Of a stretch of DNA of 64,000 nt, positions 49,138 to 53,092 are shown one piece after another. A program made the translations under genes and the position numbers. The notes under the pieces were generated by a model. The model saw only the letters and a program-made list of their open reading frames with translations. It was not told the origin of the DNA and searched no databases. The stretch covers positions 1 to 64,000 of the forward strand of contig NZ_CANLZZ010000002.1 of the NCBI RefSeq assembly GCF_947495725.1. The letters are read 5' to 3'. Source of the DNA: an uncultured Lutibacter sp. (GTDB lineage Bacteria > Bacteroidota > Bacteroidia > Flavobacteriales > Flavobacteriaceae). The stretch's first letter is position 1, and each line of letters begins with the position of its first letter.

Positions 49138-50442
49138 GTGTTAAATTTAACAATACAGTTAATATTTTTTGTTATTTTCGAAACACTAAAACTAAAAAAA
49201 GACACCGCATTGCCTATTCTATTTCATGAAAACCTTAATGTTTTCAATGTTTTATTTGAAGCAGTTTCAGAAGGAGTAATAGTTGTTGATGAAAATCAGA
49301 CAATTGTTGTAACAAATGCTGCTGCAGAAAAAATGTTTGGATATTCTAAAGATGAATTAGTAAACCAGCATTTACAATTATTAATTCCAACAAGGTATCA
49401 TAAAAATCATGGTGGCCATTTTAAATCATTTTATAAAAAATCTGAAACACGTCAAATGGGTCAGAATACCGATTTATATGGAGCACATAAAAACGGAGCA
49501 AATATACCAGTAGAAGTTGGGTTGAATCCATTTGAAATTGAAGGGAAAAAGTATGTAATGTCTATAGTTATTGATATTACAATTAGAAAAAAATCAGAAG
49601 CTAAAATTTTAGAATTAAATAGCCTATTAGAAGGGAAAATTTCCAAAAGAACAATAGAGTTAAATAATACAGTAACCAACCTAAAAGAGGAGATTGAAAA
49701 AAGGGTAAAAGCTGAATCTAAATTAAGGAAGGCCCTTAAAAAAGAGAAAGAGTTAAATGAATTAAAAACAAAGTTTTTGTCGCTTGTTTCTCACGAGTTT
49801 AAAACACCATTAAGCGGAGTTTTAAATGCAGCCGTATTAATTGGGAAATACAAGCTCACCGAAATGCAAGACAAAAGAGAAAAACATTTATTAACAATTA
49901 AAAATAAAGTGCATTATTTAGACGGTATTTTAAATGATTTTTTATCGGTAGAAAGGATGGAGTCGGGGAAAGTTACATATAAATATGGAAATTTTAAACT
50001 TAGCAAAGTAGTAAATGAAGTTATTTACAATGCAAATCTAATGTTAAAAAGTGGGCAACATATTAATTACCCTAAAAATATAGACAACATAGATCTTTAT
50101 CAGGATGAAAAAATACTAGAACTTATTTTATCAAATGTATTAAGCAACGCTATAAAATATTCACCAGAAAACACAAATATCGATTTTCAAATTAAAGAAA
50201 CAACCGATAAAATTTTATTTCAAATATCAGATCAAGGAATAGGCATTCCTCCAAAAGATCAAAAATATATTTTCAATCGTTATTTTAGAGCTGAGAATGC
50301 TTTAACAAATCAAGGAACAGGTATAGGTTTAAACATTGTAAAAGGACATTTAGAAAGTTTAGGAGGAAAAATAGAATTTAGAAGTATATTTAATGAAGGT
50401 ACTACATTTACAATTCAACTACCATTAATTAGCAAAGAATGA
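49138..50442 (+). CDS. Soluble PAS-domain sensor histidine kinase, FixL-like
   Basis: 434 residues by the GTG at 49138; a TTG at 49210 (giving 410 residues starting LPILFHENL) fits the conserved part better, since the first 24 residues look unlike a domain and a TATTTTCG box lies within them. No membrane helix in the conserved part. One PAS domain (~40-150) whose sequence follows FixL: EKMFGYSKDEL, LLIPTRYHKNHGGHF, and KNGANIPVEVGLNPFE. The His of YHKNHGG aligns with the FixL haem-ligand position, but such a His also occurs in non-haem PAS domains, and the FixL oxygen-sensing Arg is not kept. Then a coiled linker, HisKA with LVSHEFKTPLSGV, and a HATPase with NAIKYSPE, DQGIGIPPK and GTGIGLNIV. 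Overlaps the regulator gene by 4 bp (ATGA). Confidence 0.9.
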   Translation: MLNLTIQLIFFVIFETLKLKKDTALPILFHENLNVFNVLFEAVSEGVIVVDENQTIVVTNAAAEKMFGYSKDELVNQHLQLLIPTRYHKNHGGHFKSFYKKSETRQMGQNTDLYGAHKNGANIPVEVGLNPFEIEGKKYVMSIVIDITIRKKSEAKILELNSLLEGKISKRTIELNNTVTNLKEEIEKRVKAESKLRKALKKEKELNELKTKFLSLVSHEFKTPLSGVLNAAVLIGKYKLTEMQDKREKHLLTIKNKVHYLDGILNDFLSVERMESGKVTYKYGNFKLSKVVNEVIYNANLMLKSGQHINYPKNIDNIDLYQDEKILELILSNVLSNAIKYSPENTNIDFQIKETTDKILFQISDQGIGIPPKDQKYIFNRYFRAENALTNQGTGIGLNIVKGHLESLGGKIEFRSIFNEGTTFTIQLPLISKE

Positions 50443-51500
50443 AAAAAATATTAATAATTGAAGACGACTCAGTTTTAAGAGAAACCACGGCCGAAATTTT
50501 AGAATTAGAAAATTATAAAGTAGTTACTGCTGCCAATGGAAAAAGAGGTGTAGAACAAGCTCGAATAATGTTACCAGATTTGATAATTTGTGATATAATG
50601 ATGCCAGAGCTTGATGGTTATGATGTGTTTAAATTACTTTCAGAAGATTCCAAAACAAAAAAAATACCTTTTATTTTTATGTCGGCCAAAACTGAAATGA
50701 AAGATGTAAGAAAGGGAATGGATTTAGGAGCAGATGACTATTTAACTAAACCAGTTGAAGAAGAATTGCTTTTAAGCGCAATAGAAAGTCGACTTGCGAA
50801 ATCTGAATTGTTAAACGAGGCTGAAATTATTGAAGAAGAGGCTGAGGAAGAGGTAGATGAAACGCTTGAGAATATTTTAAATTTGGACGATTTAAAAAAT
50901 TATTTTTGCGATTATGGTACAGCAAGAACATATAAAAAAGGAGAATATATATACAAGGAGCAAGAAAATTCGAATTACGTTTATTTAGTATATAAAGGAA
51001 AAGTAAAAGGAGTAAAAATTGATGAATTTGGAAAAGAATTAATAATTACTGTCAACAAAGATGATGACCTTTTTGGATTTTCGGCATTATTTGAAGGGGC
51101 AAGAAATTATGAATCTGCAATTGCCATGGAGAAAGTGGAAATTATGAGTGTTTCTAAAAACACTATTCAATCAATATTAAAAAATAATTATCAACTTTCG
51201 TTAGATATTTTTCAATTGATAAATGAAAATTTAACAGAAATAAAAGATCAGTTACTTCAAATGGCCTATGGTTCAATGCGAAGAAAAACAGCTAAAACAA
51301 TTATTAAATTTGCCCATAAAATGAGGCAAAAAACCACAAATAGTATTAATATTTCCAGAAGAGACTTAGCAAGTGTTGCCGGAATTGCAACCGAAAGTCT
51401 TATTAGAACTTTGACCGATCTTAAAAAAGAAGGAGTTATTGAAATTGAAGGAAGAAATATTAGAATTATCGATTTAGAAAAATTGGAAGCTATCTATTAA
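50439..51500 (+). CDS. Response regulator fused to a CRP/FNR-type DNA-binding protein
   Basis: 353 residues. Receiver domain 1-120 with the phospho-acceptor Asp52 (IICDIMMPELDG), Thr/Ser region FIFMSAKTEM and Lys in YLTKPVE. A Glu-rich linker (EIIEEEAEEEVDETLENI) leads to a cyclic-nucleotide-binding-like beta roll (~150-260; GEYIYKEQENSNYVYLVYKGKVKGV) and a CRP winged helix at the C-terminus (ISRRDLASVAGIATESLIRTLTDLKKEGVI). No N-terminal or central Cys cluster, so it is not an Fe-S FNR. Phosphorylation by the overlapping PAS kinase probably controls DNA binding. In effect FixJ-type input and FixK-type output in one chain. Confidence 0.93.
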   Translation: MKKILIIEDDSVLRETTAEILELENYKVVTAANGKRGVEQARIMLPDLIICDIMMPELDGYDVFKLLSEDSKTKKIPFIFMSAKTEMKDVRKGMDLGADDYLTKPVEEELLLSAIESRLAKSELLNEAEIIEEEAEEEVDETLENILNLDDLKNYFCDYGTARTYKKGEYIYKEQENSNYVYLVYKGKVKGVKIDEFGKELIITVNKDDDLFGFSALFEGARNYESAIAMEKVEIMSVSKNTIQSILKNNYQLSLDIFQLINENLTEIKDQLLQMAYGSMRRKTAKTIIKFAHKMRQKTTNSINISRRDLASVAGIATESLIRTLTDLKKEGVIEIEGRNIRIIDLEKLEAIY

Positions 51501-51550: not shown

Positions 51551-51593
51551 TGATTTATGTCATTTCTTATTAATACTGCATTCTATATGTTTG
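51551..51593 (+). promoter_or_regulatory. CRP/FNR-like site plus -7 box ahead of the universal stress protein gene
   Basis: TGA-TTTATG-TCA (51551-51562) has the half-site spacing of CRP/FNR sites; extended, CTGAT-TTAT-GTCAT fits TTGAT-N4-ATCAA at 7 of 10 bases. The -7 box TATGTTTG is at 51586-51593, so the site centre falls at about -42, the class II activator position. There is no -33 TTG, as expected if an activator replaces it. Confidence 0.5.
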
Positions 51594-51610
51594 CAGTAAT
51601 ATTAGGAAAC

Positions 51611-52456
51611 ATGAAGAACGTATTAATTTTAACTGATTTTTCTGATAAATCATGGAACTCTATTGAGTATGCTCTTGGTTTATTTCAAAACACACAATGT
51701 ACCTTTCATTTGTTACATGCTGGTAAGAGAAACGAAAATGAAGTTGAGAATGAAATTTATGACCAATTTCAAATGGTTAAAGTTTTTAATAAGCGAGACA
51801 CCAAAAGGGCTTTTGACGTGTTATTGCAAAAGTTAAAAACTCTTTCGCTAAAAGGAAATCATAAATTTGTGTCTGTTTTAGACAATAATAATATAGTTGA
51901 AGCGGCAAGAAATCAAATAAAAAATAATAAAATAGATTTAATTGTTATTGGCGCAGATGATATGACGCTAAAAGGTAAAATTAATAAAAACTCTATTTCC
52001 GAAGATGTAATTACAAAAGTTAAATGTTCTGTACTGGTGGTTCCAGAAGAAGCAAGGTTTACGGGGTTATTTCAAATTGGAGTTCCAACAGATTTTACTA
52101 ATTTTTATGAAGCTAAATTATTACAAGACTTAACAAATAGAGGTAGTTATAGCAATTCGGCCCTGCGTTTTCTATACCTTAGTAAAGAAAATGATAAATT
52201 AAATAAAGAGCAAAGTTGGAACAAAGAAACATTGCACGATTATTATATTAATAAAGAACATTCTTTTCATTCTGAAGTAAATCCAAACTTAGAAATTTCA
52301 ATGCAAAAATTTATTGAAGAAAAGAAAATAGATATTGTTGTTTTAGCGGCTAAAAACCTAAATTTATTTGAACAAATTTTATTTAGGCCAAAAACCGAAC
52401 GTTTAGATTATTACTCAAAAACACCTTTCTTAGCTTTGCACCAATCCAATTTTTGA
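51611..52456 (+). CDS. Universal stress protein, tandem Usp domains
   Basis: 281 residues from the Met at 51611 (MKNVLILTDFSDKSWNSIEYALGLF); the track start at 51557 lies upstream of the promoter box. First Usp domain to ~145: LTDFSDKSWNSIEYAL, VIGADDMTLKGKINKNSISEDVITKVKCSVLVVPE, i.e. the ATP-loop G-x2-G-x9-G pattern is weak. The second Usp-like half is more divergent, ending KIDIVVLAAKNLNLFEQILFRPKTERLDYYSKTPFLAL. Usp proteins of this kind often rise under low oxygen or stasis. It follows the REC-CRP gene on the same strand, probably as its regulatory target. Confidence 0.85.
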   Translation: MKNVLILTDFSDKSWNSIEYALGLFQNTQCTFHLLHAGKRNENEVENEIYDQFQMVKVFNKRDTKRAFDVLLQKLKTLSLKGNHKFVSVLDNNNIVEAARNQIKNNKIDLIVIGADDMTLKGKINKNSISEDVITKVKCSVLVVPEEARFTGLFQIGVPTDFTNFYEAKLLQDLTNRGSYSNSALRFLYLSKENDKLNKEQSWNKETLHDYYINKEHSFHSEVNPNLEISMQKFIEEKKIDIVVLAAKNLNLFEQILFRPKTERLDYYSKTPFLALHQSNF

Positions 52457-52477: not shown

Positions 52478-53092
52478 ATGAAAATAATTATAACACTAAC
52501 TATTTTATTTTTAGGAGCTCAACTATTTTCTCAAACAAATTATCAAAAATTTAAGTCGCAAGATTTTCCCATTAAAAAGTGGATTATTTTTCATCCTTTG
52601 AAAGCAAAAAAGGCTGAAATTTTATCGAAAAAAGCATTAAAAATTTCAGACTCAATTGCAGCTACAAATTTATTTAGTAACGACAAATTTGGCGGAAGTG
52701 TTGATGCCTTTAGACATGCTTTTTGGATGGCAACACTTCGTCAGCAAATTGGCAAGTGTGCTGCTCAAAGTTTAGGAAAAGCTTACGAAAGAAGTAATAA
52801 AAGAACATTTAAACGAAGTAATAGAAAAGGAACAACATCATTTTATGATAAACCTTCAAAAAAGATGGATTTGTTCAATAATAAAGTAGGTTTGAGTTTA
52901 GTAAAAAGAAATCAAATTATTAATAAAAATGAGTTGATAATTATTATTGTACAAGCAATTAAAAACGGGAAACTTAAAATTTTAAAAAAGGATTCATTTG
53001 GTAATTTTTTAAATTGTAAAGGGCAACGCTTAAATTTAATTGAAGTTAAAGGTTGGAGAAATGACAAGTGTCTTGTTTCTTCAAATAAATAG
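52478..53092 (+). CDS. DUF6973-like secreted protein
   Basis: 204 residues. Signal peptide (MKIIITLTILFLGAQLFSQ). The conserved core GGSVDAFRHAFWMATLRQQIGKCAAQSLGKAYERSN, with GG-x-x-D-A-x-R-H-A-x-W, marks a family of short secreted or toxin-linked proteins of unknown activity; the conserved Asp, Arg and His suggest an enzyme. The remainder is basic. It starts 22 bp after the universal stress protein gene, probably co-transcribed. Confidence 0.65.
   Translation: MKIIITLTILFLGAQLFSQTNYQKFKSQDFPIKKWIIFHPLKAKKAEILSKKALKISDSIAATNLFSNDKFGGSVDAFRHAFWMATLRQQIGKCAAQSLGKAYERSNKRTFKRSNRKGTTSFYDKPSKKMDLFNNKVGLSLVKRNQIINKNELIIIIVQAIKNGKLKILKKDSFGNFLNCKGQRLNLIEVKGWRNDKCLVSSNK

Follow-up and report, generated by a model that had tools for sequence, protein, structure and literature searches.

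A PAS histidine kinase and a REC-CRP fusion regulator as a predicted two-component system for low oxygen and related stress in Lutibacter and other Flavobacteriaceae

Two overlapping genes of an uncultured Lutibacter sp., encoding a soluble PAS histidine kinase and a response regulator that joins a receiver to a CRP-type DNA-binding module, are proposed to form a two-component system for low oxygen and related stress, in which the REC-CRP protein would act as a class II activator of the adjacent universal stress protein (USP) gene and of other genes. Based on comparative sequence analysis, the probability of this reading was put at roughly 0.6. The pair lies in a stretch of 64,000 nucleotides, the whole of which was analyzed and is referred to as the window.

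Gene Organization and Conservation

Both genes were confirmed in the list of open reading frames, where they overlap by the sequence ATGA (Table 1). Pfam assigned PAS_9, HisKA and HATPase_c domains to the kinase, and Response_reg, cNMP_binding and HTH_Crp_2 domains to the regulator, bearing out the original prediction of a soluble PAS kinase overlapping a REC-CRP fusion. The regulator was 90% identical to that of L. citreus. A TTG codon occurred at the matching place in 5/5 Lutibacter loci and gives the kinase the length found in most relatives (409–413 aa), so that translation probably starts at TTG 49210, with the upstream GTG 49138 being less likely. For the USP gene, ATG 51611 is the more likely start, because the part of the reading frame that begins at 51557 overlaps the predicted operator and promoter. 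A gene for a DUF6973 protein (52478–53092; Pfam) was found directly 3' of the USP gene.

Table 1. Features of the kinase, the regulator and the USP promoter region in the window.
Feature	Position	Strand	Basis and remarks
Soluble PAS histidine kinase	49210..50442	+	410 aa from TTG 49210; ORF open from GTG 49138; Pfam
FixL/DosP-type PAS domain (PAS_9)	49270..49581	+	Pfam; PDB sequence matches; AF2 model pLDDT 89.6; Foldseek best match Ec DOS haem PAS
His codon, haem-ligand position of FixL and DosP	49408..49410	+	Alignment; His in 64/71 relatives
Thr codon, position of FixL Arg214/Arg220 and DosP Arg97	49468..49470	+	Alignment; Arg in 46/71 relatives
H-box His (SLVSHEFKTP), predicted phosphorylation site	49792..49794	+	Invariant among relatives
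REC-CRP fusion response regulator	50439..51500	+	353 aa; Pfam
Asp52 codon, predicted phospho-acceptor of receiver	50592..50594	+	Invariant, 73/73
Recognition helix TESLIR with Glu319 and Arg323, FNR-type	51390..51407	+	Glu and Arg invariant, 73/73; cf. host FNR-like TESAIR
Predicted operator TGATTTATGTCA	51551..51562	+	Centre −41.5 of USP promoter; conserved site; sigma-A map in PMC9723704
Predicted −7 box TATGTTTG	51586..51593	+	Exact spacing conserved; transcription start expected near 51598
USP gene, first predicted target	51611..52456	+	ORF open from 51557; PF00582; conserved neighbour

The comparison set consisted of 80 related loci and the window (81 loci). An adjacent kinase–regulator pair was found in 73 of these 81 loci, and a USP gene stood directly 3' of the regulator in 76 of the 81, making the kinase–regulator–USP triad recurrent across Flavobacteriaceae; the USP gene (PF00582) that had been noted behind the regulator is indeed a conserved neighbour. 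Other frequent neighbours encoded further USPs, a ribosome hibernation factor (PF02482), a HemN-like radical SAM protein, DeoC, thioredoxin (named by eye) and a CcoI-like ATPase. The ChaN gene reported to precede the kinase is present in the window (PF04187, E 5e-59), but it adjoined the pair in only 5/81 loci, all from Lutibacter, and was rejected as a conserved partner or part of the system. In one relative (L208, G066:C80:285000-304900), the REC-CRP gene was part of an island that also carries genes for nitrous oxide reductase, HemN and several USPs, along with many copies of the composite site described below. The searchable literature, in which subscription papers are thinly covered and absence is no proof, yielded no description of the kinase/REC-CRP family, and the pair is conserved and apparently unstudied.

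The PAS Sensor Domain

In a search of PDB sequences, the PAS domain of the kinase aligned with S. meliloti FixL (E 7e-14) and E. coli DosP (E 2e-13), and all sequences matched at <1e-6 were haem PAS domains, namely FixL, DosP or FG214. The motif YHKNHGG places a His of the window kinase at FixL His194/His200 and DosP His77, consistent with the alignment to FixL and the haem-ligand His that had been predicted. Foldseek searches with the AF2 model ranked Ec DOS first and FixL next. The oxygen-sensing Arg is missing from the window kinase, as also predicted, although most relatives have it (Table 1); Thr is found where DosP has Arg97, and Gln where DosP has Met95. The functional roles of the haem His and the O2-contacting Arg in haem PAS domains have been described (PMC10765370, PMC4263535). 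Since Thr replaces this Arg, O2 sensing by the window kinase appears doubtful, and redox or NO sensing plausible.

The distal Arg trait changed nine times on the tree. His and Arg together were mostly absent from the other PAS domains of six Flavobacteriaceae genomes. Among 16 distant plasmid-borne PAS domains that were sampled, most of them without haem proof, His occurred in 15/16 and His with Arg in 12/16; because of the latter count, the residue pair is better taken as a clade marker than as proof of haem, and its value as a haem-specific signature is weakened. It is possible, if rather doubtful, that the PAS domain holds no haem and serves another ligand or a structural relay, the signal of the circuit being unrelated to oxygen. 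The frequent His of the distant domains would fit such a role, as would the FixL Arg206 position, which is not conserved among the kinase relatives, and the absence of the distal Arg from the window kinase; however, among solved structures haem PAS domains come closest in both sequence and fold, the two residues rarely occur together in other Flavobacteriaceae PAS domains, the hydrophobic distal positions are retained, and the predicted targets are low-oxygen genes. A second alternative, to be held no more than tentatively, is a haem-binding window kinase that, having lost the distal Arg, responds to NO or redox state and not to O2. This is suggested by Thr at the Arg position, given that the R97A substitution in DosP raised autoxidation >400-fold (PMC4263535), and also by the nos genes in the one related island and the host NorB/NorC-like genes beside a predicted site (by eye). 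Against it, loss of the Arg could simply be loss of function, and the kinase of L. flavus retains Arg at the equivalent distal position.

Two more kinase and REC-CRP pairs were present in the host genome (L111:7039-9335 and L112:5765-7973). One has His and Ser at the haem positions (kinase paralogue at C7) and a USP gene behind it, and the other has neither the haem-position His (C3 paralogue) nor an adjacent USP gene. Nine loci (L009, L014, L022, L025, L050, L054, L058, L066 and L077) encode longer kinases of about 625–684 aa, in which a LOV-type domain, bearing the photoactive motif NCRFLQ, is inserted between the first PAS domain and the kinase core; the domain from L009 matched LOV domains of solved structure, the lowest E being 1.7e-33. 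Signals of light and of low oxygen may come together in these kinases. A link between LOV gain and loss of the distal Arg was suggested by raw counts, yet it was unsupported on the tree (five independent gains, sign test p 0.5).

The REC-CRP Regulator

Asp52 and Lys104 of the receiver were invariant among relatives, and the phosphorelay residues as a whole (H-box His; receiver acidic pocket, Asp, Ser/Thr and Lys) were invariant or conservatively kept. The fusion of receiver and CRP module stands as predicted, but the receiver is not FixJ-like, with no FixJ-named chain among the best 60 of its 325 PDB matches. Once the two REC-CRP paralogues were set aside, the CRP half was nearest to an FNR-like protein of the host, which leaves the suggested collapse of a FixJ and FixK cascade into one protein unsupported as history. 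The N-terminal Fe-S cysteine cluster is absent from the window regulator, where the receiver takes its place, and Cys157 of the CRP part is Cys in only 9/73 family regulators. The Arg/Glu of the cyclic-nucleotide pocket, at positions for which we take E. coli CRP as the reference, are absent from the corresponding positions of the window regulator, where the family as a whole shows no conserved Arg.

Ten CRP-family proteins, including three REC-CRP fusions, were detected in the host by a PF13545 search, which may miss a divergent member. The recognition helix TESLIR of the window regulator is nearly equal to the TESAIR helix of the FNR-like protein beside the cbb3 cluster. The gene for this Cys-rich protein (L114:7085-7771) is divergent from genes for a CcoI-like ATPase and cbb3 oxidase; no exact composite site was found in the host stretch that carries these genes.

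Predicted Operator and Promoter of the USP Gene

TGA-N6-TCA was present in 76/76 regulator-to-USP intergenic regions, compared with a mean of 3.0 and a maximum of 8 in dinucleotide shuffles, and in 74/76 of them a −7 element, TAnnTT, began exactly 23 nt after it. The composite TGA-N6-TCA-N23-TAnnTTTG occurred 114 times in the 80 loci, versus 0–9 times with other spacings and twice as the reversed pattern; it clustered around the REC-CRP gene, and the window had one match versus 0.04 expected. In F. psychrophilum, the sigma-A box TAnnTTTG was mapped to −12 to −5 (PMC9723704). Given this map position and the fixed spacing, the predicted site would be centred at −41.5. A scan for E. coli-type sigma-70 promoters gave matches near chance level. 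The position −41.5 is that of class II activation by CRP and FNR.

Genes Behind the Sites and Their Candidate Readers

The host genome contained 20 composite sites versus 1 for the reversed control, 4/20 of them falling within long reading frames of the opposite strand. Intergenic host sites preceded genes for two USPs, 2-oxoacid:ferredoxin oxidoreductase, pyruvate phosphate dikinase (PPDK), Hsp20, CcsBA, an MlaE permease and a glyoxalase-family protein interpreted as methylmalonyl-CoA epimerase, which together resemble a low-oxygen and dormancy set. Family-wide, the composite site was found before USP, ribosome-hibernation, HemN, KorA, PPDK and Hsp20 genes. Genes like NorB and NorC adjoin a predicted site in the host (by eye). 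The FNR-type class II sites before microaerobic and stress genes, together with the FixL/DosP-type PAS domain, favor the oxygen- or redox-type circuit originally proposed, while the signal of the window kinase itself stays conjectural.

Across 148 Flavobacteriales genomes, site density per Mb was 0.78 with neither regulator, 1.92 with an FNR-like protein only, 2.37 with REC-CRP only and 2.80 with both, against about 0.1–0.2 for the reversed control. The difference between REC-CRP-only and neither had a p of 0.006 (four REC-CRP-only genomes; genomes >1.4 Mb; uncorrected for relatedness), and adding REC-CRP where an FNR-like protein was present raised the density marginally (p 0.05). Because FNR-only genomes carry composite sites too, the sites are not specific to REC-CRP, and they were rejected as proof for REC-CRP alone. 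Nevertheless, sites are kept in four genomes without an FNR-like protein, where they precede USP, HemN, KorA, Hsp20, PEP carboxykinase and cytochrome c genes (names by eye). REC-CRP has the only Glu-x-x-x-Arg helix detected in the CRP family in three of the four; the fourth (G034) has one further protein with such a helix, and it is there that a site precedes cbb3 oxidase. The kinases of all four have both His and Arg. The assignment of sites to regulators rests on conservation and elimination, by which REC-CRP is the best candidate for the reader in the FNR-less genomes, and REC-CRP and the FNR-like protein probably share the sites in the host. That the USP operator belongs instead to the cbb3-linked FNR-like protein, with REC-CRP acting elsewhere or modulating and the low-oxygen link coming from FNR, is unlikely: it would agree with the nearly identical recognition helices and with composite sites in genomes that have an FNR-like protein and lack REC-CRP, but not with sites persisting before similar genes in the FNR-less genomes, mostly without another candidate helix, nor with a site in every region beside the regulator gene and the clustering of sites around that gene.

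Proposed Mechanism

In the two-component system proposed here, the soluble kinase would sense through its FixL/DosP-type PAS domain and phosphorylate Asp52 of the receiver, and the phosphorylated REC-CRP protein would bind TGA-N6-TCA centred at −41.5 and activate transcription as a class II activator. The adjacent USP gene would be the first target, with other USPs, the hibernation factor, HemN and anaerobic metabolism genes as further targets family-wide. In the window kinase, with Thr for the O2-contacting Arg, the O2 response is probably altered, and the protein may report redox state or NO. The sequences themselves show the domains, the invariant phosphorelay residues, the recognition helix, the site with its exact promoter spacing, and the retention of sites without an FNR-like protein; that phosphate is transferred, that the regulator binds DNA and activates instead of repressing, that the PAS domain holds haem and that the ancestral signal was O2 are inferences.

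A broader and more speculative possibility is a REC-CRP low-oxygen system common to the Flavobacteriaceae whose sensor has been re-tuned repeatedly, the Arg being lost in several lineages (here toward redox or NO) and LOV inserted in others, such that light and oxygen would converge on one regulon. Flavobacteriaceae are major marine and sediment degraders, and their switch to low-oxygen life is poorly understood. The family offers a conserved regulator together with a precisely defined operator, its position in the promoter and a list of targets, each open to testing. Its sensors also form a natural series, some having the O2-contacting Arg and some lacking it, some with LOV and some without, for studying how a haem-type PAS domain changes its signal.

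Comparison with Known Systems

The system shares with rhizobial FixL-FixJ-FixK the PAS type, in a soluble or membrane kinase, the relay through two components, and a protein of CRP/FNR type as the last regulator before the microaerobic genes. It differs in having the receiver and CRP module in one protein, without FixJ likeness or a LuxR-type HTH, and in its targets, which here are USP and stress genes; as for the FixL-type haem-PAS sensor, the F-alpha His is present, while the distal Arg of the window kinase and a REC-LuxR partner of FixJ type are not. The best fold match, the haem PAS domain of E. coli DosP, has the His77 position in common with the kinase and the Arg97 position with most relatives, but the output here is a histidine kinase, and Gln and Thr occupy the Met95 and Arg97 positions. 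FNR/Anr regulators are similar in the TGA-N6-TCA site (76/76), the Glu-x-x-x-Arg helix (73/73), the class II position and overlapping targets (HemN, cbb3 oxidase), whereas the window regulator has no N-terminal cysteine cluster and receives its input through the receiver.

DosR targets in mycobacteria include several USPs and Hsp20; in DosS/DosT the haem domains are GAF domains, and the HTH of DosR is of LuxR type. In place of a GAF haem kinase and a REC-LuxR regulator, the window encodes a PAS kinase with CRP-type output (Pfam). The present system would nonetheless resemble DosRST/DevR and OsdR of Streptomyces (PMC5069765) in placing a dormancy-like gene set, including several USPs and Hsp20, under a two-component system. 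Judging from these comparisons, the system would work like the FixLJ-K and DosR systems and yet belong to neither, because it has an FNR-type output and a receiver that is not FixJ-like, and because the window kinase lacks the distal Arg.
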